Part shown: positions 6,240 through 21,910 of the stretch, piece after piece
Layout: each line of letters starts with the position of its first letter
Position numbering within the stretch: position 1 is the first letter of the stretch
NCBI RefSeq assembly: GCF_018070025.1
Contig: NZ_JAGPYQ010000001.1
Span: 4,154,001-4,218,000, forward strand
Direction: 5' to 3'
Source of the DNA: Streptomyces liliiviolaceus
GTDB taxonomy: Bacteria; Actinomycetota; Actinomycetes; Streptomycetales; Streptomycetaceae
Length of the DNA stretch: 64,000 nt
Notes under the pieces: generated by a model
Databases searched by the model: none
Told to the model about the DNA's origin: nothing
The model's input: only the letters and a program-made list of their open reading frames with translations
Program-made: the position numbers and the translations under genes

Positions 6240-6349
6240 GGGGGTACTCCTCGAAACGGATCCGGCGGGTGCCTGTGATGCCTGGGGGCGATCAGCAAGC
6301 TAGCCCCTGGAAACCGCGAAATCGCCTGCTGGGAGCGGGTGGAGGCGAT

Positions 6350-6390
6350 CCTTATGGTGCCGTTAAGACAGGGCTAACCGAGGGCTCAGG
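6350..6390 (+). other. attL candidate
   Basis: This 41-base stretch matches 21870-21910 at 32 positions without gaps. Blocks GGTGCCGTTAAG (6356-6367) and GGGCTCAGG (6382-6390) are identical in both. The left end CCTTA...TTAAG is itself an imperfect palindrome, as expected of a recombinase core. The divergence between copies means the exact crossover is uncertain. Confidence 0.55.
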
Positions 6391-6480
6391 CAGAGCGGTT
6401 GAAGGGCCCTGCCTCACCTGCGGGCGAAAGGCGCCACTGTCCGTGGCAGTTCGCGTCCGTCCGCTGCCGGACGCGTCAGT

Positions 6481-6500
6481 TGGCTCCCCGTATGGCTCCC
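6481..6500 (+). repeat. Left arm-type integrase site candidate (doubled TGGCTCCC)
   Basis: TGGCTCCCCGTATGGCTCCC: two 8-bp direct repeats 12 bases apart. The right end of the element has the same arrangement at 21781-21800 (18 of 20 identical). After excision these would flank the joined core about 70 and 90 bases away, like the arm sites of tyrosine-recombinase attP. Confidence 0.6.
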
Positions 6501-6592
6501 GGCTGATCGATGGTTCGACGCAGAAAGACGGGGGGGGCTGGTTTCAGCGCTGGAGGCGACGCAGTGTCAACATTTTGAGGGGGGGGAGGACC

Positions 6593-6739
6593 ATGTCGCA
6601 CGAGAGGAGCGGGCTCCTTGAACCGTCCGCGCGTCGTCCAGAGCACCTGAACGTCATGCCGACACAGGTGCTTGGGTATCGCAAGTCCGTTCGGCGTCAT
6701 CGGACTCAGGAGGTGTGTGTGGACGACACTGCTGCCTGA
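6593..6739 (+). CDS. Small 48-residue ORF of unknown function (doubtful)
   Basis: ATG at 6593 follows a strong purine-rich Shine-Dalgarno stretch (GGGGGGGAGGA, 2-3 bases before the ATG). The product starts MSHERSGLLEPSARRP and is rich in Arg and His. I do not recognise it; there are no membrane segments or metal motifs. It lies inside the left element end, before the promoter of the ATPase gene. It could be a remnant or a leader peptide. Confidence 0.3.
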   Translation: MSHERSGLLEPSARRPEHLNVMPTQVLGYRKSVRRHRTQEVCVDDTAA

Positions 6740-6754
6740 CGCATCAAATCCCTG

Positions 6755-6783
6755 TTGACGGTTGCGTGATCGGACGATATTAA
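6755..6783 (+). promoter_or_regulatory. Near-consensus housekeeping promoter of the ATPase-TOPRIM gene
   Basis: TTGACG at 6755-6760, a 17-base spacer, then TATTAA at 6778-6783: close to the HrdB/sigma-70 consensus. Transcription would start near 6790. This rules out the in-frame TTG at 6762 as the translation start of the next gene and points to GTG 6858. Confidence 0.7.
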
Positions 6784-6857
6784 AAGACTGCTACGCCAAA
6801 CCTGTCGCCCACCCTCGTGCGGCAATTCGGTTTATTCAAAATCTCTCACTGGAATCG

Positions 6858-8804
6858 GTGAAACAAGAAGTGCAGCTGCTGAAGATCGAGGCAAGAAATT
6901 TCAGGGCGTACGACAATCTGCATTTGCCTAATAATCCAGGTGGCTTGACGCTTGTAACTGGACCCAACAATACGGGCAAGAGCTCACTTCTAAACGTTCT
7001 AGACGTAGTCGCAATGGTGCCTTCAGAGACATATTTTGGACGCTACGGAACGCAGCCAGAAGTGCGTGTGCGCTTTTCCCTCAGTTTTCGCGAGAGGGTG
7101 GAAGCTTTCCACGGTGTAAACGTAGTTGCCGAGGAGGATGCCGAAAAGCTACTAGCCAAATCTGATCTTGAATGGGTGGAGTGGGCATTTGCAGGGCATG
7201 ACGGAAAGATGGTCCCGATAGAAATCAGGACGTATCTTCACGGACAAGAAAGGTCAATTGCAAAAGTCCTTCAGGATGGATCTCGCTTCAAGATTCTCGC
7301 GCCAAGTATGGTGCTGAGCCACTGGGATGGAACTCCGAATACCACTGCCGGGTTCGATCTAGAGACAGCGATTTTGGCTCTCAGTACACCGATAGTCTTG
7401 GATCCTCTTGCCAAGCTGCTTGAATTTTTCCTGGAATGGCGGAGAGGATATTTTCATTTTGAACCCCTGCGTCGCTCGCGAGCCCGCGAGGTCTCTCTTG
7501 CTTCTCACGAGCGACTGGAAAGTGACGGTCAAAACCTTGCCGAAGTCCTTCTGCACCTGCAACATAACGAGCCTGAAGCGTGGAGACATCTAGGCGAGCT
7601 ACTTGAGCGTATCGTTCCAAATGTGGGGCAACTCATGACGCCCACCTCGCAAGGTATGTTTCATGTTGCTTTCCGGGAAAAATGGGTGGGGGGTAACTTT
7701 TCGCACAACCTTAAGGACGTGGGAACGGGTGTTGAGCAGGTGCTACTAACGCTCGTGGCAGGGCTGACATCAGCAGCGCACACCCTAGTGCTGGAAGAGC
7801 CAGAGACGGGGCTACATCCAGCCGCGCAGCGTGCCTTGCTCAGTGTGATTCAAGATTGGGCACGCCAAGGACGCAATTTCTTCATCTCCACACACTCGAC
7901 AGTCTTCCTCGATTGGGCATCTTCGAACATCTTGGAAGTTCGTAAGGAAGGTGCGGCTTCTAAAGTGCAGTTGGTCTCGACTAACCGCGAAAAAGTACTC
8001 CATGCGCTGGGAGTTCGCCTAAGTGACGCTCTGTCCGCTGAAAGGCTGCTCGTCCTCGAAGGGAAATCAGACGAACTGATCATTGAGCAGTGGTTTCCTC
8101 ATCTAATTGGTGACCCAACCGTCGCCATTATCAGAGGTGAGGGAGGTGACAGTGCACGCCACGTCGATATCCTATCAAAATGGCTGGAGCAAGCGGACCC
8201 AGTCGGATTGCGCAAGGTTCTATATATTCGCGATCGAGACGAACTGCCTCATAGGCTCGTGGAAAAACTGAATGCGAAAGATTCAGCTTTCCTTCTGCCC
8301 TGTCGGGAAATTGAGAACCTGCTGGTTGATTTTGTTGCACTTTCAGCACACCTGGAGGATTGTGGCGCTCAAAGAAAGCTGTCGCCTAGTGAGATCGAAA
8401 CGTACGCTCGCACGGTTGCCGATAGTTTGCAACAGGTTGTAGTAATGAAAAGAACATCATGGGACCTTGAGCCTCTCAGGTTCGTTGACAATAGCTCGCG
8501 AAATAAAATGGCTAAGGCGAATTTCTCCAGGGAGGAAATGATTGCGCGGACCGTCTCGCAAATTCCCGATAAAATGGAATTCGCCGATTTTGTGCGAACT
8601 CGATGGAATGAAAATGAGGGGCAGATTCGGGAGCTTTGGGAGAGGGATTGGCGCATCCTCGCTCCTGGGTATGAGCTGCTAAATTCGATCTATAGAAGGT
8701 ATCTGGATAGGTCGTACGACAAAATTGCAGACGGCCCTAAGCTTGCCGCCAAAGTCACCCCTATCCCCGAACTGGTGCGAATTGTAGAATCCTTTGTGCG
8801 GTAA
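6858..8804 (+). CDS. AAA/ABC-type ATPase fused to TOPRIM/DUF4435-like nuclease (OLD/PARIS-like; candidate anti-phage defence)
   Basis: 648 residues if the GTG at 6858 is used (GGAA 5-6 bases before it; a further in-frame GTG lies at 6870). The conserved region begins LLKIEARNFRAYDNL. Walker A is GPNNTGKSS (Lys about 41), Walker B/D-loop is LVLEEPETGLHPAAQ (about 310) and the switch His is in FISTHST. The C-terminal half has TOPRIM-type acids LEGKSDE (about 398) and IRDRDE (about 456), then CREIENLLVD, which resembles the IEN motif of DUF4435 in AriB. ATPase plus TOPRIM recalls OLD nucleases and fused PARIS systems. Codons are AT-rich (AAA, GAA, AAT, TTT common), unlike its neighbours, so acquisition is recent. 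It sits at the cargo end of the element behind its own promoter. The defence role is inferred. Confidence 0.8.
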   Translation: MKQEVQLLKIEARNFRAYDNLHLPNNPGGLTLVTGPNNTGKSSLLNVLDVVAMVPSETYFGRYGTQPEVRVRFSLSFRERVEAFHGVNVVAEEDAEKLLAKSDLEWVEWAFAGHDGKMVPIEIRTYLHGQERSIAKVLQDGSRFKILAPSMVLSHWDGTPNTTAGFDLETAILALSTPIVLDPLAKLLEFFLEWRRGYFHFEPLRRSRAREVSLASHERLESDGQNLAEVLLHLQHNEPEAWRHLGELLERIVPNVGQLMTPTSQGMFHVAFREKWVGGNFSHNLKDVGTGVEQVLLTLVAGLTSAAHTLVLEEPETGLHPAAQRALLSVIQDWARQGRNFFISTHSTVFLDWASSNILEVRKEGAASKVQLVSTNREKVLHALGVRLSDALSAERLLVLEGKSDELIIEQWFPHLIGDPTVAIIRGEGGDSARHVDILSKWLEQADPVGLRKVLYIRDRDELPHRLVEKLNAKDSAFLLPCREIENLLVDFVALSAHLEDCGAQRKLSPSEIETYARTVADSLQQVVVMKRTSWDLEPLRFVDNSSRNKMAKANFSREEMIARTVSQIPDKMEFADFVRTRWNENEGQIRELWERDWRILAPGYELLNSIYRRYLDRSYDKIADGPKLAAKVTPIPELVRIVESFVR

Positions 8805-8938
8805 GTTCTTAGCTGAGAGAGCTGGCAGCCGCGTACTAAAGCGGGGCAGCGAGTGCTCTTGCCTGGAAGTCGGCCTGCCCCGGTGCCGCACTTCGTGGGA
8901 TCCTTGGCGGCGAACGATGGACGAAGCGAGGGGGCGAA

Positions 8939-9376
8939 GTGTCAGACGCCAGTCCGCGAGGGACCTATTTGGTCATTGCGGAGGTGCTGCGAGAGCAGAT
9001 CGTAGAGGGAGAGTCGTTGCCTTCGGAGGCAGCCCTCATGCGCTCTCACGGTGTCTCGCGGAACACTATCCGTCGCGCGCTCAAGACGCTCGAAGCGGAG
9101 GGCGTTGTCGAGGCTGCACCCGGCATCGGATGGCGTCCCGCTGGGAGCGGTGACCGCCGGTCGCTTGCCGATCGCATGAACGACGTGATCACGGAAGACT
9201 CTCTGAAAGTAGGCGATACCTACCCGTCAGAGGCGAAGCTGTGCGAGCGGTTCGACGCATCCCGAACCGCTGTGCGTCGCATCCTTGCGCAGATGGAAGG
9301 GACCGGCCTGCTCGCTACTGTTCACGGGAAGGGGCGCACGGTGCGCGCCCTCCCGACTCCCGCCTCGCGGCCGTAG
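8939..9376 (+). CDS. Double winged-helix GntR-type regulator
   Basis: 145 residues starting at GTG 8939 with an AGGGGG ribosome binding site. Two GntR-type winged helices are arranged in tandem: about 9-70 (SLPSEAALMRSHGVSRNTIRRALKTLEAEGVV) and about 78-140 (TYPSEAKLCERFDASRTAVRRILAQMEGTGLL). There is no effector domain. GntR regulators such as KorSA control pSAM2-type elements but usually carry a UTRA domain, so this architecture is unusual. The HD gene follows 11 bases downstream, probably in the same transcript. Confidence 0.85.
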   Translation: MSDASPRGTYLVIAEVLREQIVEGESLPSEAALMRSHGVSRNTIRRALKTLEAEGVVEAAPGIGWRPAGSGDRRSLADRMNDVITEDSLKVGDTYPSEAKLCERFDASRTAVRRILAQMEGTGLLATVHGKGRTVRALPTPASRP

Positions 9377-9387
9377 TCTTGGCAGTC

Positions 9388-9948
9388 ATGGGACTGACTG
9401 AGTGGGCTTACTCGCTCTCCGAAGCGATGCTGTCCGAACCGTTGCCGCGCCGGTGGGCGCACTCTCTCGGGGTCGCCAAGCGTGCTCGCTCGTTGAGCCC
9501 GATCCTGGGAGCCGATGCGGAGCTGCTGGAAGCCGCGGCCGTGCTGCATGACGTCGGGTACTCGCCGGCCATCGCCACCACGGGCTTTCACCCACTGGAT
9601 GGCGCGCGATTTCTCCGGGATCAGGAGGGAGCGGACGAGCGTGTCGTTCGTCTCGTGGCTCACCACTCTTGCGCGCTGCTGGAAGCCGAGGAACGCGGAT
9701 TGAGGCGTGACCTAGAGGGGGAGTTCGAGCTAGAGCGGCCGGACCTGGTCGACGCCCTGGTGTACTGCGACATGACGACAACGCCCGATGGGACACCGAC
9801 CACGCCGGCCGCGCGGCTGGACGAGATCGTGAAGCGGTACGGTCCCGACACGATCGTCGGGCGGTTCATTCAGCGCGCGTCTCCCGAGATCTATGCAGCG
9901 TCGGAGCGTGTTGAGAGCCGGTTGGTGCTGGTCTCTGCCGACGGTTAG
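9388..9948 (+). CDS. HD-domain phosphohydrolase
   Basis: 186 residues from ATG 9388. HD-superfamily metal ligands are visible: RRWAHSLGVA (His), AAVLHDVGY (His-Asp), FHPLDG and LVAHHS, then a late Asp in ALVYCDMTT. Such proteins hydrolyse nucleotides or related phosphate esters; the substrate is unknown. Small HD hydrolases are common accessory genes in Streptomyces AICEs. It is co-directional with the GntR gene and its stop overlaps the end of the convergent Nudix gene by 4 bases. Confidence 0.85.
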   Translation: MGLTEWAYSLSEAMLSEPLPRRWAHSLGVAKRARSLSPILGADAELLEAAAVLHDVGYSPAIATTGFHPLDGARFLRDQEGADERVVRLVAHHSCALLEAEERGLRRDLEGEFELERPDLVDALVYCDMTTTPDGTPTTPAARLDEIVKRYGPDTIVGRFIQRASPEIYAASERVESRLVLVSADG

Positions 9949-10418
9949 CCAATGTAGGGTTCCCGTCGCGATGCATCCAAGCCGTGCCGAATGCGCAGCA
10001 TCATCGACGGGTGGATATCGAGTCGGTCTAGGTCCGCTGGGTTTACCCAGCGGACCTCTTTTGATTCACTACTTGTGCGCAGAGAACCGCCCGTGGGGTG
10101 AGCCCGGAAGCAGATGGAGAACTGTTGCCGGACTTCCCCGTCGTCGTACGCCAGCACGTGAGAAGGGTCAGTGTAAAGCCCGACGATGTTGTCGACCACA
10201 ACCTGAATTCCTGTCTCTTCCGAGACTTCCCGGACGACTGTTTCGCCGATGCTTTCACCAATGTCGTGACCGCCGCCAGGAAGGGCCCATAGGTCGTTGT
10301 CGGTCTTATGGATGAGAAGAAGCTGCCCTGAGTCGTCCTGGACAACTGCGGTGACTGAAGGCACCACTGAGTTGGCTTGCGGAGCGTTCGGGTCGCGGAA
10401 GTAGTCGATGCGGCTCAT
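9945..10418 (-). CDS. Nudix hydrolase, Pif-like
   Basis: 157 residues from ATG 10418 (MSRIDYFRDPN). The complete Nudix box is GGGHDIGESIGETVVREVSEETGI (G-x5-E-x7-REVSEETG). The ATG overlaps the stop of the upstream XRE gene (ATGA), so the two are coupled. In pSAM2 the Nudix protein Pif blocks redundant transfer between cells that already hold the element; the same role is likely here by position and family but is not shown by sequence. Confidence 0.88.
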   Translation of the reverse strand: MSRIDYFRDPNAPQANSVVPSVTAVVQDDSGQLLLIHKTDNDLWALPGGGHDIGESIGETVVREVSEETGIQVVVDNIVGLYTDPSHVLAYDDGEVRQQFSICFRAHPTGGSLRTSSESKEVRWVNPADLDRLDIHPSMMLRIRHGLDASRREPYIG

Positions 10419-11185
10419 GAGTGCGTGCCTTCCCAATCGGCCGGCGTGGAGATAGGCCGGGCGGACTCCCAGACCCTCTCAACACTCTCAGCGTAGGAGT
10501 CGAAGAGTTCTCCGCCGGGGACGCGTCGCAGGTGCAGTACAGGGGCCATGTAGGCGCCGACGCCGTAGAGGTGACCATTCGCCAGCATCTCGTCATCGGC
10601 TCGATAGATCGAGTTGTATAGGGTGGTGCTATGTAGGCGAAATTCCACCCCCGGGAGACGGAAGAGCGGGCCGTAGTTGATTAGGGCGTTCCGGATCTTC
10701 CCTCCCATTGTCGCGCCGATTCCCTCGTCTTCCCCGCGCACTGCTACAGCGGACGACGTCGGCTCTCCCAGCATGAAGCGGATCGGGACTCCATCGGCGG
10801 ACTTTTCTTTCACGATGCGATGGAATGTCGCGTCTTCTGTGAGCCAAAATCCGGAGTACACCAGCACGTCGAATTGTCGCGTCGATTTGGAGTAGAGGTT
10901 CGTCCACAGCGTCTGCATCACGACGGACCGGTGTGGATAGAGCCTGACTAACTCCGCATTACCAGAAGCCGTGACCTCGGCCGAGGTGCGTTCGTCAGGC
11001 CATAGGTACGACACTTCGCACTTTAGTAGTGAGGCGGTCGCGTACTGGAAGCGCCGGTACGGCTTGCGCTCGGGGTCGTTGATCCATCGCTCAACCGTCT
11101 TGGGCGCGACCCCGAGCCGCTCGGCAACCTCATCAAGGGTCAGGCCCAAGTCCACTATGGCGCCGCGCAGTCGCTCGTTCGCCAT
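10415..11185 (-). CDS. XRE-type regulator with C-terminal DUF5919-like domain
   Basis: 256 residues. An N-terminal helix-turn-helix (about 5-60: LTLDEVAERLGVAPKTVERWI) is followed by a domain of about 150 residues containing VVMQTLWTNLYSKSTRQFDVLVYSG, FRLHSTTLYNSIYRADDEMLANGHLYG and a C-terminal VERVWESARP. The pattern recalls the phospholipase-D-like DUF5919 regulators common in Streptomyces mobile elements; no catalytic activity can be claimed. It is the first gene of a leftward operon with the Nudix gene and probably represses one side of the 11186-11822 control region. Confidence 0.8.
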   Translation of the reverse strand: MANERLRGAIVDLGLTLDEVAERLGVAPKTVERWINDPERKPYRRFQYATASLLKCEVSYLWPDERTSAEVTASGNAELVRLYPHRSVVMQTLWTNLYSKSTRQFDVLVYSGFWLTEDATFHRIVKEKSADGVPIRFMLGEPTSSAVAVRGEDEGIGATMGGKIRNALINYGPLFRLPGVEFRLHSTTLYNSIYRADDEMLANGHLYGVGAYMAPVLHLRRVPGGELFDSYAESVERVWESARPISTPADWEGTHS

Positions 11186-11214
11186 GCCAACCTCCGTCTA
11201 GCCGGGACGACTTG

Positions 11215-11253
11215 GTACGACTTCACGCTATCCAAGAACGACTCAGGTCGTAC
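11215..11253. promoter_or_regulatory. Inverted repeat upstream of the XRE gene, operator candidate
   Basis: GTACGAC at 11215-11221 and GTCGTAC at 11247-11253 form 7-bp arms around 25 bases. A further ACGACT / GAAGTCG pair lies between and beside them. The position 30-68 bases before the XRE start suggests autoregulation or control of the rightward transcript. Confidence 0.4.
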
Positions 11254-11754
11254 AGGTGCGAAGTCGATCGTCGTCGCTGTCGGAGTCAGGCTCTAGGTAC
11301 ATCACGGCGAGGGGCTCGCCGAACTTCAGAAAGTCGAAGGGCTTGACGGAGCGAACCCCTCTCTGCATGATGAGGAACACGTACTACATGTACCTCTCGG
11401 GGCGGGGACGCTGCAATCCCGCTAAAGGCCAGGTGGAACAGGGTTTCGGCCCGTACTGGCGAGGTGGCCCGGCGACCGCGAGCAACGGCCGGAGTGTGGG
11501 GACTGGGTCCCCCTTGCAGTGCTGGTTCTTGTTCCTTCGATCTTCGGGAGTGCTGTGCGTCAACGAATGTTTTGGGCGTCGCCGTGATGGACCGACCGGC
11601 GGCGCCTGCAGAGCAACTTTCCGGTCCGTCTTCTGGTTTCGCGGCGCCTTGAGCCGCGGCTGGCTGCCTCTCTCGCCCGTCCGTCCCGCGCACTGCGTGA
11701 GGACGTACGGACGGGAGTGCGGGGAGCCGGAACTCCCTGGTTCCACAACGGCGC

Positions 11755-11789
11755 GCGGCCCCGGTGCTCGAACACCGGGGCCGCTTTTT
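11755..11789 (+). terminator. Strong Rho-independent terminator in the transfer-operon leader
   Basis: Perfect 12-bp stem GCGGCCCCGGTG / CACCGGGGCCGC with a 6-base loop, directly followed by TTTTT. It ends 33 bases before the ATG of the first transfer-operon gene, so it either ends an upstream transcript or works as an attenuator. Confidence 0.8.
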
Positions 11790-11822
11790 CGGGCCGTTCC
11801 GTCTGCTGAGGAGAGACGACCC

Positions 11823-12125
11823 ATGAAGTGCATCGTTGCTGGTCATGAAGCCGTTACCGCGACGGAGTTCGCGGAGCTGGCGTTCGGTATCGACCCGGAG
11901 CTGTTCACCGACCCGGCCATGGAGTCCGAGGGTGATCGGGTGGTGCGGTTGGACGTGGCGCGGGAGGTTCTCGCGGAGCTGCGGGAGTCGGACCCGCCGG
12001 CCGCGGCGTACGCGGAGACGCTGCTGCGTACGAGCCCGCTGAGGGACGCGCGGGCTGTGGCCCGTCGGCCGCGGACGCGCCGGACGGCGCGTGGCTCCGT
12101 GGTGCGTACGGCGGTGGCGGCATGA
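11823..12125 (+). CDS. Conserved AICE-type small protein, unknown function
   Basis: 100 residues from ATG 11823 with GAGGAGAG upstream. The acidic N-terminal part (MKCIVAGHEAVTATEFAELAFGIDPELF, LDVAREVLAELRESDPPAA) ends in a very basic tail (ARRPRTRRTARGS). I see no known domain. The stop overlaps the next start (ATGA), beginning a run of four coupled genes in the transfer operon. Codon bias supports a real gene. Confidence 0.75.
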   Translation: MKCIVAGHEAVTATEFAELAFGIDPELFTDPAMESEGDRVVRLDVAREVLAELRESDPPAAAYAETLLRTSPLRDARAVARRPRTRRTARGSVVRTAVAA

Positions 12126-14407: not shown

Positions 14408-15022
14408 GTGGCTTCAAACAACGCGGGCCAGCGCAACGGCGGCCCGAGCGCTTCCGCGCAGGCCCGCAACTTCGCCCGACACCAGGCGCAGCAGCCGTAC
14501 CAGAGGCCCAACAACGGCAACAGCAACCACGGCAAGGGCAACAAGTTCACCAACGCGGGAGCAGCGGTCGGAGGGTTCGTCGGCGCGATGGGCGGCTCGT
14601 TCGTCCCGCCCGTCAACATCACCGTGAACAACAACCGGGCCCGCGGCAACAGCGGCCGGCGCGGGCACGAAACCCTGCTCCCCGCACCGGACTTCAGCTC
14701 TCCCGCGCTGATCCGCAACTACTGCAACACCCTGCGCGCGGCTGCGGTGACCTTGTCCATCGAGGTGGCCATGGGTGCGGAGATTTTGAACGGCGTGCTT
14801 GCGGCGGTGCCGGACCCGGAGGGCCGCGCGTTCGGCTCCCGCCTGCGTGCGGCCAAGGTGTCGCGCAAGATGCGCCGCGCCTCCGACGACCTGCGCCACG
14901 CGGCCAAGAGCGCGGCTGCGGCCTACGCGACGTTCCAGCAGGAGTACGAGGAAGAGATCAACCGCGTCCGCCACCGGGCCCGCAAACCGCAGGCGCCCGT
15001 CATCGACTGGTCGCAGCAGTAA
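14408..15022 (+). CDS. Transfer-operon protein upstream of traB, unknown function
   Basis: 204 residues from GTG 14408 (AGGAGGAACC ribosome binding site). The N-terminus is low-complexity Asn/Gln/Gly (QQPYQRPNNGNSNHGKGNK), followed by a short Gly/Ala hydrophobic stretch (AAVGGFVGAMGGSF), and a helical C-terminal half rich in Ala and charged residues. Proteins of this kind accompany traB in Streptomyces AICEs; the function is not known. The stop lies 12 bases before traB. Confidence 0.7.
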   Translation: MASNNAGQRNGGPSASAQARNFARHQAQQPYQRPNNGNSNHGKGNKFTNAGAAVGGFVGAMGGSFVPPVNITVNNNRARGNSGRRGHETLLPAPDFSSPALIRNYCNTLRAAAVTLSIEVAMGAEILNGVLAAVPDPEGRAFGSRLRAAKVSRKMRRASDDLRHAAKSAAAAYATFQQEYEEEINRVRHRARKPQAPVIDWSQQ

Positions 15023-15034
15023 GGAGGGTTGACC

Positions 15035-17128
15035 ATGGCAAGGAACAGCAGCGGTGGCCGCGCGCGGCACACCGACTACCTCGGAGACGGCATCGTCGCC
15101 GACTACCGGGGTGAGGGTCTGCTCCCCGGGCAGGGCTCCGGGGGCGGGATCGGCGCGTACCTCCTCAACCGGGCCAAGCCGCATCTGCCGCCGTGGCTGG
15201 GAGTCGGTGCGGCCGGTGTCGCGGGCGCGTTGGGGAACTGGCGGTGGGGGGAGAGCGCTCCGGCCGGAGTCGGCCTCACCCTCGCCTCCGTCGCCCTCAC
15301 CGGCGTCACCTGGTGGGTCGGCCGCAACACCTCCGCACAGCGCCGGCTGCACTCCGCGATCACCGTGGCCGCGGGCTCCGCGTGGGTGACCGGAGCATGC
15401 CTCGCCGGGCCGCTCGCGGGACCGCTGGACGACCTGTATCTGATGGGCGGGCCGGTCGTGGCCCTGTCGTGGAACGTGCGCATGATCCTGCGCACCCCGG
15501 ACGGGGAAGCGAGCGGACAGGGCGGCGACAAGGGACTGCTGGAGAAGATCGGTCTGGCCCGTGCGCAGATCGGCGCCGCGAAAGTCGAGCCGAACCGGGT
15601 CACCGCGCCCATCGCGCTCGCTGCGGGGGAGCAGACCAACGACGACGTGACGAAGGCGCTCGGACTGCTCGCGTCCGCGCTGGACCTGCCCGCCTCCGCG
15701 GTGCGCTACCAGCCCGACCCGGACTCCGTGCGCCGCGGCGAACTCGTCATCGTCCCCGAGGACATGCTTGCCGAGTTCGTCGAATACGACGGGCCCTCCA
15801 ACCTCGGAGGCTCCATCGCGGACCCGCTGCTCCTCGGCCGGTACGACGACGGCGCGCCGATGCACCTGTGGCTGCCCGGCGACCCGGAGGCCGACCGCAA
15901 CGGCACCCACGTGCTCATCGCCGGCGGCTCCGGCTCCGGCAAGGGCGACACCGCCCTGAATCTCCAGACGGAGATCCTTTCCCGCTCCGACGTGCTGCTG
16001 TGGCTGTCCGACCCGAAGATGTTCCAGGACTTCCGCCCCCTGCTCCCCGGCATCGACTGGGCAGCCGAGGGCGGCACCCCCACCGAAGTCATGGTCGAAG
16101 CGTTGCAGGAGGTCATCCCTGCCCGGACCCGCTGGCTCGGGCAGCACTCCTACCGGCAGTGGCTCCCGCAGGCAGCCCAGCAGCAGAACGACCCCCAGCA
16201 CTCCTGCCGGCCGGACGGCACCGCGTGCGGCTGCGCGGGGATGCCGTTCCTCGTGGCCTGGATGGAAGAGGCCGCCAGCACCCTGCGGGCTCTCGGGGAC
16301 GACGCGTTCACCGGGATCTCGCAAGAGGCCCGTTCCGCGGGTGTCTCCCTGATCGTCTCGTTGCAGCGCCCCTCCTACGACCAGATGTCCACCAGCACCC
16401 GCGCCGCCCTGCCGTCCGTGATCGCACTCGGCTGCGACCCGCGCGACGAGGGATTCTCCCTCCCGGACCGGGTCTTGGACGCGGGCGCGCACCCGGGAGC
16501 GTGGGGCAACCGCAAGCCCGGTTACTGCTACCTCGTGAGCACGGGCGTGCCCGAGGACCGCTACGCCTCCCCGGGGCGCACCCGTGCCTTTACCCACCGG
16601 TCGGTGTCCCTCATGGAAGTCGTCGCCGCGTGGGCACAGCGCAACGGCGCCACCGCCGACCCGATCACCGCCGGGGCCGCCGCATCCATCGCGGGCAACG
16701 CCTACGGCGGCCGGCCGGTACCCGGGGACGGGCACGGCGCACCGCATGCCGCTCTCGCTGCGGTCGATCCGGAGGACGACGACATGGACGACGCCCCGCG
16801 ACACGACCCCGAGGACGAGCAGATCGACCCGGAGGAGGAACTCCCCGCGGCGCAGACCGGAGACGATGCCCCGATCTTCGGAGAGGGCACCGGCCGCAAG
16901 CCGAAGGGGGAAGAGGCCCGCCGGCTGCTCGCGGAGGCGCTCGCGGAGTTCGAACGAGACGGACAGATGATCATCGGTCCCAAGGATCTGTCCGACTGGT
17001 GCGACCGCCACAACCTCTCCCGCCCGTGGGTGTCCAAGAAGCTCGCGGAGGCAGCCGCGGAGGGCCGACTCGCCCCGACGAACACCACCGGCCGGTGGCG
17101 CATCGTCCCCTCCCTGACCCGCGCGTGA
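15035..17128 (+). CDS. FtsK/SpoIIIE-type conjugative DNA translocase TraB
   Basis: 697 residues from ATG 15035, chosen because AAGGAGGG lies 6 bases upstream; an in-frame TTG at 15029 overlaps that site. Two or three membrane helices lie in the first 130 residues. Walker A is GGSGSGKGD (Lys about 303) and Walker B is FLVAWMEEAAS (about 410). An acidic linker leads to a C-terminal winged helix (about 630-697; KDLSDWCDRHNLSRPWVSKKLAEAA). In Streptomyces, TraB alone moves double-stranded DNA between mycelia and its winged helix reads short repeats at clt. A TGACACC array overlaps its own stop. Confidence 0.93.
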   Translation: MARNSSGGRARHTDYLGDGIVADYRGEGLLPGQGSGGGIGAYLLNRAKPHLPPWLGVGAAGVAGALGNWRWGESAPAGVGLTLASVALTGVTWWVGRNTSAQRRLHSAITVAAGSAWVTGACLAGPLAGPLDDLYLMGGPVVALSWNVRMILRTPDGEASGQGGDKGLLEKIGLARAQIGAAKVEPNRVTAPIALAAGEQTNDDVTKALGLLASALDLPASAVRYQPDPDSVRRGELVIVPEDMLAEFVEYDGPSNLGGSIADPLLLGRYDDGAPMHLWLPGDPEADRNGTHVLIAGGSGSGKGDTALNLQTEILSRSDVLLWLSDPKMFQDFRPLLPGIDWAAEGGTPTEVMVEALQEVIPARTRWLGQHSYRQWLPQAAQQQNDPQHSCRPDGTACGCAGMPFLVAWMEEAASTLRALGDDAFTGISQEARSAGVSLIVSLQRPSYDQMSTSTRAALPSVIALGCDPRDEGFSLPDRVLDAGAHPGAWGNRKPGYCYLVSTGVPEDRYASPGRTRAFTHRSVSLMEVVAAWAQRNGATADPITAGAAASIAGNAYGGRPVPGDGHGAPHAALAAVDPEDDDMDDAPRHDPEDEQIDPEEELPAAQTGDDAPIFGEGTGRKPKGEEARRLLAEALAEFERDGQMIIGPKDLSDWCDRHNLSRPWVSKKLAEAAAEGRLAPTNTTGRWRIVPSLTRA

Positions 17129-17699: not shown

Positions 17700-18608
17700 A
17701 TGACCCATGACCCCCGTACCGCGCTGCTGTCCGCAGCGCTGGATGCCGCCGCGCGCGGGTGGCACGTCTTCCCGCTCCGGCCCGGCACGAAGCGGCCCGC
17801 CCTGCACGGCGCCGACCGCTGCCGCACCACCGGCGACTGCGCCGGCGGGCATCTGAAGTGGCAGGAGCGGGCGACCGTCGACCCGCACCGCATCACCCGG
17901 TGCTGGGAGGCCAGCCCCGCGAACGTCGGGCTCGCTACCGGCCCCTCCGGGCTGGTCGTCGTGGACCTGGACGTGCCCAAGAATCAGGACAACAGCAGTG
18001 CGGACGCGCCTGACGGCGCGGCGACCTTTGAGGCGCTCTGCGAGCGCACCGGCCACACCGTCCCCACCACCTACCGGGTCCGGACCGCGAGCGGCGGACA
18101 ACACCTGTACTTCACCGCCCCGGCCGGCGTCCGGCTGGGCAACACCGCGGGCACCCTCGCACCCCTGGTCGACACGAGGGCATGGGGCGGATACGTCGTC
18201 GCCGCCGGCAGCACCATCCCAGGCGGATCGTACGAGACCGTCAACGACACCGCCCCAGCACCGCTGCCGGGATGGCTGCTGGAGGTGCTGCAGCCCGCCC
18301 CCGCACAACTGGTGGTGCCGTTGCCGTTGCCCGCGGTCGACGGCAGCCGCGCAGCGCTGGCTGCGCTGGAAGCCGAATGCGCGGTCGTCGCGGCGGCGCT
18401 GGAGAAGCAGGGCAACATCACGCTGAACCGGTGCGCGTTCAAGGTGGGGCGGTTCGTCGCGTGGGGCGACCTCCCCCGGCACGTGGCAGAGAACGCCTTC
18501 CAAGCGGTGGGAGAGGCCCGGGGACTCACCGCTGCGGAGTGCCGGAGCACGATCCGCAGTGCCCTGGACAGTTCCCTGCGCAAGGTCAGGCCCCGGGAGA
18601 CGGCATGA
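17700..18608 (+). CDS. Bifunctional DNA primase/polymerase (prim-pol, AEP superfamily)
   Basis: 302 residues from ATG 17700 (GGAG upstream). The prim-pol domain covers about 8-200: WHVFPLRPGTKRPAL, the catalytic DLD at residues 89-91, and GGQHLYF with His135 of the active site. It supplies primer synthesis for autonomous element replication in AICEs. The stop overlaps the helicase start by ATGA. The C-terminal third (NRCAFKVGRFVAWGDL...) is a helical primase-associated region. Confidence 0.9.
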   Translation: MTHDPRTALLSAALDAAARGWHVFPLRPGTKRPALHGADRCRTTGDCAGGHLKWQERATVDPHRITRCWEASPANVGLATGPSGLVVVDLDVPKNQDNSSADAPDGAATFEALCERTGHTVPTTYRVRTASGGQHLYFTAPAGVRLGNTAGTLAPLVDTRAWGGYVVAAGSTIPGGSYETVNDTAPAPLPGWLLEVLQPAPAQLVVPLPLPAVDGSRAALAALEAECAVVAAALEKQGNITLNRCAFKVGRFVAWGDLPRHVAENAFQAVGEARGLTAAECRSTIRSALDSSLRKVRPRETA

Positions 18609-20233
18609 ACACCCCTCCCCGCCCCCGCTTGGAAGGCCAACCAGAACCGAGCAGCCCGCACCCCGCCCAACCGGCCGCACCCGGGCCGGTCATGGGCGAG
18701 CCGAAAAGCGCCGCCCGCAAGGGCGTCCGCACTGCTCCTGGTCCTGACTTGGACGTAACCACGGGCAGCAGCATGAAAGACCCGCAGGCGTTCGAGGATG
18801 AGGAGCTGCCCGCACCGTCGAACCCGCTGGCGGTCGCGCGTCGACTGCTGCCCGACTGGCAGACCGAGGACGGACAGCTCATCTGCCGGCGCTGGCGTGC
18901 CTCCTGGATGTGGTGGAACGGCGCCAGCTGGCGGGAACAGGACGAAGCGCAACTGCGCGCTTCGATGTACCGGCGCCTGGAACACGCAGTCTTCTACGTG
19001 CCCGGCAAGGACGAACAGCCGGAGCCGCGGGAGTGGGCGCCGACCAAACAGAAGATCAGCAACCTTCTAGACGCGATGGGAGCCATCACCCTGCTGCCCA
19101 CCGGTACCGACGCTCCGGTCTGGCTCGACACCAATGGCGACCCGAGCGAGCAGGACTGTGGCCCCATCGTGGCATGCGCGAACGGCTTGCTCAGGATCAG
19201 GGACCGTGTCCTACTTCCGCACGGTCCGCACTTCTTCAACCTCGTCTCCGTCCCCTTCGCCTACGACCCGACTGCGACCGCACCTACCTGGGAGAGGTTC
19301 CTGGGGCAGATCTGGCCTGATGACCTGGATGCGATCAACGCCCTGCAGGAGTGGTTCGGCTACGTGTTGTCCGGCCGCACTGACCAGCAGAAAGTCATGC
19401 TGATCGTCGGCCCGTCCCGCTCCGGCAAGGGCACCATCGCGCGCGTACTCAAAGAACTGGTCGGCAAAGAGAACCTCGCCGGGCCCACGCTCGCCGGACT
19501 CGGCACCAACTTCGGACTGTCCACCCTGATCGGCAAGCCGCTCGCGGTCATCTCCGACGCCCGGCTGTCCGGCAGCGACAACAGCCAGGTCGTGGAGCGG
19601 CTACTGACGATCTCCGGGGAGGACACCATCGACGTGGACCGCAAGTACCGTGAACAGTGGACGGGCAAGCTCCCCACCCGACTGATGCTGCTGTCCAACG
19701 AACTGCCGCACTTCGGCGACTCCTCCGGCGTCATCGCCAAACGGTTCATCCTGCTCAACATGCGCGTCTCATGGCTGGGCAAGGAAGACACCACCCTCAC
19801 CGACCGGCTCGCAACGGAGATGCCCGGCATCCTGAACTGGGCTCTCGACGGCATCGCCCGACTCCAGCAGACCGGCCGGATCACAGAACCGCAGTCCAGC
19901 CGCGAAGCAGTCACCACCATGCAGGACACCGCCTCACCAACGAGCGCGTTCGTCCGCGAGCGCTGCGCCACCGGTCCCACGTGCAGCGTCCCCGTGGATG
20001 TCCTATGGAACGTGTGGCGGGAGTGGTCTGAGGACAACGGCGTGCGACCCGGCACGAAGCAGATGTTCGGCCGCAACCTGCTGTCCGTCGTTCCCCAACT
20101 CAACCGAACTCGCCCCCGCGACGCGTACGGCCGGCAGGTGATCACCTACAACGGGATCACGCTCGCCCTGCGCGAACCACATTTGCCAGAGTCGCGACTC
20201 AGCGACGCTCAAGACCCCTCTGAGCGCCGTTGA
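18605..20233 (+). CDS. Phage/plasmid primase, P4-type SF3 helicase (replication initiator)
   Basis: 542 residues from ATG 18605, coupled to the prim-pol gene; internal ATGs at 18692 and 18774 are less likely. The D5 N-terminal domain (LICRRWRASWMWWNG..., about 80-220) leads to the SF3 helicase with Walker A GPSRSGKGT (Lys about 275), AVISDARLSG and sensor LPTRLMLLSNELPHFGD. A C-terminal winged-helix segment ends the protein. Together with the prim-pol it forms the AICE replication module. Confidence 0.9.
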   Translation: MNTPPRPRLEGQPEPSSPHPAQPAAPGPVMGEPKSAARKGVRTAPGPDLDVTTGSSMKDPQAFEDEELPAPSNPLAVARRLLPDWQTEDGQLICRRWRASWMWWNGASWREQDEAQLRASMYRRLEHAVFYVPGKDEQPEPREWAPTKQKISNLLDAMGAITLLPTGTDAPVWLDTNGDPSEQDCGPIVACANGLLRIRDRVLLPHGPHFFNLVSVPFAYDPTATAPTWERFLGQIWPDDLDAINALQEWFGYVLSGRTDQQKVMLIVGPSRSGKGTIARVLKELVGKENLAGPTLAGLGTNFGLSTLIGKPLAVISDARLSGSDNSQVVERLLTISGEDTIDVDRKYREQWTGKLPTRLMLLSNELPHFGDSSGVIAKRFILLNMRVSWLGKEDTTLTDRLATEMPGILNWALDGIARLQQTGRITEPQSSREAVTTMQDTASPTSAFVRERCATGPTCSVPVDVLWNVWREWSEDNGVRPGTKQMFGRNLLSVVPQLNRTRPRDAYGRQVITYNGITLALREPHLPESRLSDAQDPSERR

Positions 20234-20575: not shown

Positions 20576-21769
20576 ATGACCGAGACCCCCGATCGGCGTC
20601 CCAGAGCGGGACACGGCGACGACTCGATCTACTGGGACAAGTCCAAGAACCGGTACATCGGCGCGGTGTCTCTCGGCTACACCCCGGCCGGCAAGCGCAA
20701 CCGCTCGAAGGTGTCAGGCAGGACAAAGGCCGAGGTCCGCCAGAAACTCCGTGAGTTGCGGAAGGAGTTGGAGAAGGGAGCCAAGGCGCCCGCCAACTAC
20801 AGCGTCGCCCAAGCCGTGACCGACTGGCTGTCCCAGGGGCTCAGGGGCAGGGAGGCGACGAGTGTCGATACATACAAGAGCCTCGCGGATCACCACATCA
20901 TCCCGCATCTCGGTAAGGCCAAGATGCGGGATCTTGAGGCCGATGATCTTGACGAGTGGTTGGAGGCAGAGGCCGAGGTTCTCGCGACTCAGTCTCTGAA
21001 GATGGTTCATTCGATCCTGCGGCGGTCGATCAGCCACGCTCAGAGGAGAGGCAGGGCTATCCGTAACGTGGCTGATCTGGTCGAGGTACCGGACGGGCAG
21101 GCTGGCCGGCCGAGCAAGTCGCTTTCGCTGAAACAGGGGGAGGCGGTTCTTCGTGCGCGGGAGGGCAGTTGGATCCACGCCTACGTGGTCTTGTCGCTTC
21201 TCGTGGGCGTCCGCCCGGAGGAAGCGCGCCCCCTCACGTGGGCCCACATTCACCTGTCAGGCTCCGGCAAGGACAAGCCTCACGTCGACGTGTGGCGTTC
21301 AGTGCGTCGACACGGCGATACGAAGACCCGTAAGAGCCGACGATCACTGGCTATGCCGCGGCAAGCCGCTCTCGTCATGAAGGCGCACAAGCGTCAAGAG
21401 CAGGCCAGATGCCTGGCAGGCGGGAAAGCGTGGAGTGATGAGACTCTCGTCTTCCCGACCGAGACCGGCGAAGTGCGTAGCGCTCTGAATGTGCGCCGGA
21501 ACTTCCGAGGGCTGCTCAAAGAGGCGGGTTTCGTGCATCCGCATGAGTGGACTCCGCGCGAGCTGCGGACAAGCTTCGTGTCCCTGCTGTCGGACCATGG
21601 GATTCCGATCGAGGTCATCGCGCGCCTTGTCGGGCACATGGGTAGCGGAACGACTGAGCGGGTCTACCGCAAGCAACTGCGCCCCGTCATCTCCGAGGGC
21701 GCGGAAGCGATGGACGACATCTTTGGTGAAGACGACGCGAAGGATGGAGGTACCCCTGAGGCAGGCTGA
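20576..21769 (+). CDS. int: Site-specific tyrosine integrase
   Basis: 397 residues from ATG 20576. SAM-like N-terminal DNA-binding domain (VAQAVTDWLSQGLRG..., about 75-170) and catalytic domain from about 185. The first Arg is in GVRPEEARPL, Lys in TKTRKSRRSL, box II reads TPRELRTSF (the usual His before LR is not at its standard place), the late His is in LVGHMGSGTT, and the nucleophile is probably Tyr in ERVYRKQ (about 371). It ends 12 bases before the right arm site, the standard place for an element integrase. Confidence 0.93.
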   Translation: MTETPDRRPRAGHGDDSIYWDKSKNRYIGAVSLGYTPAGKRNRSKVSGRTKAEVRQKLRELRKELEKGAKAPANYSVAQAVTDWLSQGLRGREATSVDTYKSLADHHIIPHLGKAKMRDLEADDLDEWLEAEAEVLATQSLKMVHSILRRSISHAQRRGRAIRNVADLVEVPDGQAGRPSKSLSLKQGEAVLRAREGSWIHAYVVLSLLVGVRPEEARPLTWAHIHLSGSGKDKPHVDVWRSVRRHGDTKTRKSRRSLAMPRQAALVMKAHKRQEQARCLAGGKAWSDETLVFPTETGEVRSALNVRRNFRGLLKEAGFVHPHEWTPRELRTSFVSLLSDHGIPIEVIARLVGHMGSGTTERVYRKQLRPVISEGAEAMDDIFGEDDAKDGGTPEAG

Positions 21770-21780
21770 CTCGCGCGCGG

Positions 21781-21800
21781 TGGCTCCCTGTTTGGCTCCC
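21781..21800 (+). repeat. Right arm-type integrase site candidate
   Basis: TGGCTCCCTGTTTGGCTCCC, the same doubled TGGCTCCC with 12-base period as at 6481-6500. It lies just after int. Confidence 0.6.
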
Positions 21801-21827
21801 CGTGCCTAGATGAGGTCCTCGGGTACC

Positions 21828-21869: not shown

Positions 21870-21910
21870 CCTTACGGTGCCGTTAAGGGAGTGCTGAGAC
21901 TGGGCTCAGG
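21870..21910 (+). other. attR candidate
   Basis: Partner of the 6350-6390 repeat (32 of 41 identical). CCTTACGGTGCCGTTAAGG at the left end is an imperfect palindrome. The copy lies 18 bases upstream of the GNAT start, so it may also be part of that gene's promoter. Confidence 0.55.

Follow-up and report, generated by a model that had tools for sequence, protein, structure and literature searches.

An ATPase-TOPRIM protein carried by a conjugative element of Streptomyces liliiviolaceus, a probable single-chain relative of PARIS

In the defence system PARIS, the sensor ATPase AriA keeps AriB inactive until a phage protein frees it, after which AriB pairs and cuts tRNA in a two-metal reaction (PMC12409363). 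For the OLD and GajA proteins, the described activity is DNA cleavage (PMC10568477). The 2022 report of PARIS also described single-gene AriA-AriB fusions (PMC9122126), which are mentioned again in PMC10568477 and PMC12409363, and a 2023 review named as unclear whether a fused PARIS works differently (PMC10568477). As described in Rousset 2022, two-gene PARIS was called with DUF4435 (PF14491) at 27 bits, and the fusions were found via profiles built from proteins holding both an ATPase and DUF4435. Here we analyse a 64,000-nucleotide stretch of Streptomyces liliiviolaceus (contig NZ_JAGPYQ010000001.1, positions 4,154,001 to 4,218,000; the window from here on), in which an actinomycete integrative and conjugative element (AICE) carries one gene of this general build (6858..8804, + strand; 648 residues; start at GTG 6858 or GTG 6870). 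Its product is very likely a defence nuclease of the ATPase-TOPRIM class, AriAB-like or OLD-like, and on balance we regard it as probably a one-polypeptide relative of PARIS, carried as AICE cargo and acting as an abortive-infection nuclease.

A Pfam scan of the 648-residue protein found AAA_15 (4.5e-19; 69.7 bits against a cut-off of 32.1) and AAA_21 (1.2e-16; 62.1 bits against 27). Conservation was read from 42 of 47 family matches, five entries (P0017, P0019, P0028, P0038 and P0047, mostly shorter or partly matching) having been dropped from the alignment. On the + strand, the ATPase comprises Walker A GPNNTGKS (residues 35-42, 6960..6983; G35, G40 and K41 invariant), a stretch NLKDVGTGVEQV that may be the ABC signature (residues 284-295, 7707..7742; N284, G289, G291, V292 and Q294 invariant), Walker B LVLEEPE (residues 310-316, 7785..7805; E313, E314, P315 and E316 invariant) and the H-loop THS (residues 345-347, 7890..7898; T345, H346 and S347 invariant). 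It is followed by a TOPRIM domain (residues 396-480, 8043..8297), modelled as strands alternating with helices and with E401, G402, D405, R458, D459 and D461 unchanged in 42/42 sequences, so that the acidic site is kept throughout together with the Walker A lysine. Past it come a REIEN motif (residues 483-487, 8304..8318; R483, E484, E486 and N487 invariant) and a predicted C-terminal helical domain (residues 490-648, 8325..8801). The REIEN glutamate lies 27 residues past the first D of RDRD, a spacing kept in 41 of the 42 members; the corresponding spacing in DUF4435 fusions is 26 in 71 of 120, with 48 unmatched by the pattern and 1 other. All the motifs listed in an initial annotation of this DNA (GPNNTGKSS, LVLEEPETGLHP, LEGKSDE, IRDRDE and an IEN-type motif, here REIEN) are present, and the invariance of their key residues indicates that they are not chance.

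The full-length AlphaFold model has a mean pLDDT of 87.8. Fold searches with it were dominated by the ATPase half, and the C-terminus was therefore folded alone (271 residues). The best fold matches of this predicted structure are AriB and OLD TOPRIM domains, the AriB alignment spanning 227-231 residues and those of the OLD entries 126-165, and the predicted fold has a TOPRIM and a helical domain as AriB does. The likeness of parts to OLD and PARIS that had been proposed from the letters is thus borne out by the ATPase matches and by these fold matches, including the TOPRIM-type fold on which the proposal depended. The PADLOC fused-AriAB model PDLC02981 matches the protein at 1.1e-23 and 81.9 bits, a score for which the tool sets no cut-off and which stands among matches to 122 PADLOC families; the C-terminus alone still reaches 45.3 bits and is assigned to AriAB, not to OLD or GajA. 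With the published fusions the protein shares a single polypeptide with the ATPase ahead of the TOPRIM-helical part, and the PADLOC score just given extends to both. It differs from them in having no PF14491 match and in belonging to a separate clade, actinobacterial where named. With two-gene PARIS (AriA and AriB of E. coli B185; 8ux9, 8v46) it shares the same two modules, the acidic TOPRIM site and, by predicted fold, the helical domain, but fusion prevents its AriB part from leaving as a dimer of its own, and the two sequences have diverged too far to be matched residue by residue. When the C-terminus, a 9-row alignment of it and pieces of two relatives (L109 and L107) were searched against PDB sequences, nothing useful came back, so that the AriB lysines K60/K64 have no assigned counterparts; E401 may pair with E26 of AriB.

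The alternative that survives best, possible but tentative, is a single-gene, class-1-like OLD-family nuclease that cuts DNA and not tRNA, perhaps from one of the uncharacterised OLD clades. Like class 1 OLD (T. scotoductus OLD, 6p74) and the class 2 protein GajA, the window protein is a single-chain ABC ATPase with TOPRIM, and among the open frames called at five loci no partner gene recurs. Several sequence comparisons also weigh against the relationship to PARIS. In hhalign comparisons of C-terminal parts, the family scored a probability of 97.6 with L014/L017, 95.5 with L018/L024/L026, 94.6 with L048 and 93.3 with L015, and L105 scored only 20 with the family but 95 with the DUF4435 fusions. 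Rows of class-1-OLD type reached 82 (57 columns) and the DUF4435 fusions 73 (129 columns), while other probabilities were 98 for L106, 98 for L056, 90 for L060 and 72 for L019. The highest, 100, was obtained with a group of 725-758-residue Streptomyces ATPase-TOPRIM proteins (L104, L107, L108, L088 and L089), likewise AT-rich and with a REIEN, RELEN or REMEN motif, but some 100 residues longer and in a clade of their own. From this ranking, the family does not look especially near DUF4435 by sequence. Moreover, in a 46-row tree with long OLD-type branches and with two-gene AriA and AriB left out, used solely for the unity of the family and the side on which it falls, its 14 rows form one side of a 100/100 branch; they fall outside the DUF4435 fusions, on the OLD-type side. 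On the other hand, the C-terminus aligns with AriB well beyond the shorter stretch covered by the OLD TOPRIM entries, PADLOC places it with AriAB, and the EN motif sits at AriB-like spacing in nearly every member. This motif follows the TOPRIM DxD in 0/6 rows that we take to be class 1 OLD, a label assigned from motifs and not from a family scan. GajA, for its part, needs GajB, and no UvrD-like helicase gene, as expected for Gabija, adjoins the gene at the window locus.

The DUF4435/AriB-like identity of the initial annotation stands by structure and not by sequence. The window protein gave no match at E 1 to DUF4435 and none to the OLD-like TOPRIM (PF20469), although at E 1 or better the former is found in 21 of the 42 members (best 1.5e-4) and the latter in 19 (P0041 above its cut-off). 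PF14491 was absent from the precomputed domains in all rows listed of the protein and profile searches. A single DUF4435 fusion used as database query retrieved 3728 proteins at E 1e-8, of which all 120 listed carry PF14491 and an ATPase domain. DUF4435 itself was found in 0/295 Streptomyces genomes at E 1e-6 or above its cut-off, and in 1/296 genomes of a phylum sample, there as a single-gene fusion. The fused-AriAB profile, for its part, matched 55 of 394 host-family genomes at 1e-10, many through the ATPase part only, while in some Streptomyces proteins, for example L054 and L058, the match covers the end of the ATPase as well as the C-terminal part. With DUF4435 absent and matches such as these present, a count of PARIS-like proteins that relies on DUF4435 seems to overlook some in Streptomyces. 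The present family is a divergent one that this definition passes over. Since fusions have been published since 2022 (PMC9122126) and the PADLOC fused-AriAB model matches, the earlier label of a candidate new defence protein was overstated: the protein is most like a distant new member of the known one-gene AriAB-type proteins, not a new kind. No description of the family was met in searches of the open-licence PMC literature, in which a minority of the papers listed were read. It is doubtful, in our view, that these proteins make up a separate actinobacterial class of ATPase-TOPRIM immunity missed by the DUF4435 definition, with an AriB-like nuclease tethered to its sensor and switched on in place, unlike the freed AriB of two-gene PARIS.

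As a single-chain relative of PARIS, the protein may serve in defence as follows. The N-terminal ABC ATPase, AriA-like or OLD-like, would assemble and keep the AriB-like TOPRIM-helical domain inactive; a phage-made trigger would then alter this assembly and let two TOPRIM domains pair, and the pair would cut nucleic acid with two metals, most likely RNA such as tRNA, leading to growth arrest of the infected cell. The oligomer, trigger, substrate and abortive outcome are all modelled on the work with PARIS and OLD. Because sensor and effector lie on one chain, release of the AriB part would be impossible without cutting that chain, and activation in place is likelier. Being compact, well conserved and cleanly divided into its domains, this Streptomyces family would make a direct test case for how a fused PARIS acts.

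Homologues are few. Of the 7998 candidates scored in the protein search, 50 matched at E 1e-10, the first 47 being set off from the rest by a gap; a profile search with the 42-member alignment returned 57 at E 1e-8 and showed a comparable gap. Because the search is confined to lengths between 0.55 and 1.75 times that of the query, the single-chain state of the 42 members is partly by construction. Named members belong to Streptomyces, Kitasatospora, Micromonospora and Geodermatophilus, with Virgisporangium added by the genome-contig search, and many are metagenome proteins. Among 392 Streptomyces genomes, 6 had a match at 1e-40, three full length (including the window's own) and three covering about residues 281-644, and in a class-wide sample 1/394 genomes matched at 1e-70, namely the window's own. 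Full-length homologues are thus rare and patchy. Among the genome-contig matches listed, at least 52 in all, the family is represented by L002 and L003 alone, and the others are weaker OLD-type relatives. Searches with the C-terminus by tblastn gave one weak match in a plasmid collection (E 0.1, 53% covered) and none in a phage collection. None of the 39 loci from an IMG/VR scan looks as if it belonged to the family: the best reaches 29% identity over residues 285-502, and identities above that are confined to shorter parts.

Flanks were read at five loci, and four of these hold mobility-type genes: the window, L102 (FtsK_SpoIIIE, 4.9e-7), L103 (no Pfam match, but an open frame resembling the L102 one by blastp, 6e-25) and L003 (TraG-D_C, 1.8e-6; Replic_Relax, 4.7e-19). 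The Pfam scans covered 4 neighbours each at L102 and L103, 2 at L003 and none at L002. Such a distribution gives no sign of a housekeeping gene living mainly outside mobile elements. A non-defence role in the element, such as keeping out rival plasmids or acting in regulation or repair while the AICE transfers, is improbable: the transfer-type genes would suit it and archaeal Cran1, an OLD protein, is apparently not antiviral (PMC12796447), but the gene is rare in Streptomyces and tied to no fixed element type, the genomes of two homologues (G411 and G407) having no close TraB and only matches of 177 residues at E 4e-8 and 7e-8. Apart from the homologue, blastp of frames called by a heuristic caller found no gene common to all five loci (L002 offering less than 2 kb on one side). 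Between L002 and the window, an HD gene (56% over 87 residues) is all that is shared besides the homologue. Near the L102 homologue, SRA-HNH and HNH_2 genes (10976-11926 and 6676-7998 of that locus) are likely modified-DNA restriction enzymes, which is of interest since PARIS answers anti-restriction proteins.

The cargo position assigned earlier to the gene was confirmed, 0.5 kb inside the integrase-distal end of a 15.5 kb element. The element is an AICE, with a tyrosine integrase (20576..21769, +; Phage_integrase 5e-13, phrog_1 1.7e-43), a P4-type primase/helicase for replication (18182..20233, +; TIGR01613 1.3e-52, above cut-off; the true start may differ), the TraB translocase (15029..17128, +; NF041214 3.7e-296, above cut-off), att repeats and an empty site; TraA (14408..15022, +; NF041213 7.6e-70, above cut-off) is also encoded. 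The repeats are attL, CCTTATGGTGCCGTTAAG (6350..6367), and the near-identical attR, CCTTACGGTGCCGTTAAG (21870..21887), which differ by one mismatch, attL being shared with the empty sites of relatives. Both flanks were used to probe the loci of nine relatives. L093 matched through the right flank only and the other eight through both, and in L092, L096 and L099 the flanks join across the att repeat, forming the empty site. A possible integrase arm site, TTGGCTCCCCGT (6480..6491, +), recurs just inside the other end at 21792-21803. The att core GGTGCCGTTAAG lies between a host gene for a lytic polysaccharide monooxygenase (LPMO) and an acetyltransferase gene, and ARAGORN found no tRNA gene in the window or in L091, L092, L096 and L099; the usual attachment site of an AICE differs from such a tRNA-free site. 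L094, the locus of a relative, has a sequence resembling window 6379-6440, which adjoins attL on the element side; it may be a remnant or mark a different element inserted there. The att site and the LPMO gene lie upstream of the ATPase-TOPRIM gene and a GntR regulator downstream; directly after the gene, 8939-9376 (+) encodes a 145-residue protein with two tandem GntR DNA-binding stretches and no effector domain. A NUDIX gene of the element (9945-10436, -) matches the PADLOC candidate PDC-S07 at 1.1e-11, probably through the shared NUDIX fold only.

As for the gene itself, the longest open frame begins at TTG 6762, and homologue starts in the 42-sequence alignment fall at about 6858 or 6870. 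A near-consensus promoter of its own had also been claimed, which the scan does not support: under a rule that demands the final T of the -10 hexamer, chance alone predicts 0.9 sites in 6241-9400, and the single one reported lies within the gene; TTGACG-17-TATTAA at 6755-6783, read by hand, has 9/12 consensus matches but no final T. The sharp difference in base composition did hold, G+C being 0.512 in the gene (0.515 at third codon positions, GC3) and, in other 1947-base stretches of the window, 0.710 on average (sd 0.028, minimum 0.611). Recent import from a low-G+C donor was set aside, as the four homologue genes read are also just 54-56% G+C and the gene has no TTA codon, against about 11 predicted at its GC3 from the TTG count and the share of A in Lys, Glu and Gln codons. 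The TTA codon is linked to the bldA tRNA. The four homologues have 0, 0, 0 and 1, the one being in Virgisporangium, and across the AT-rich ATPase-TOPRIM genes (6858-8804, L102, L103, L003 and L104-L108; GC3 about 0.5-0.6) the Streptomycetaceae ones have none, with about 8-15 predicted in each. A set of 61 distinct AT-rich open frames from loci of Streptomycetaceae, certainly not all of them genes, has 17 TTA codons, spread over 13 frames, where about 209 are predicted. The avoidance is therefore general among such frames and not peculiar to this family, and it speaks for a long residence of these AT-rich genes in Streptomyces and for their being meant for translation during growth.
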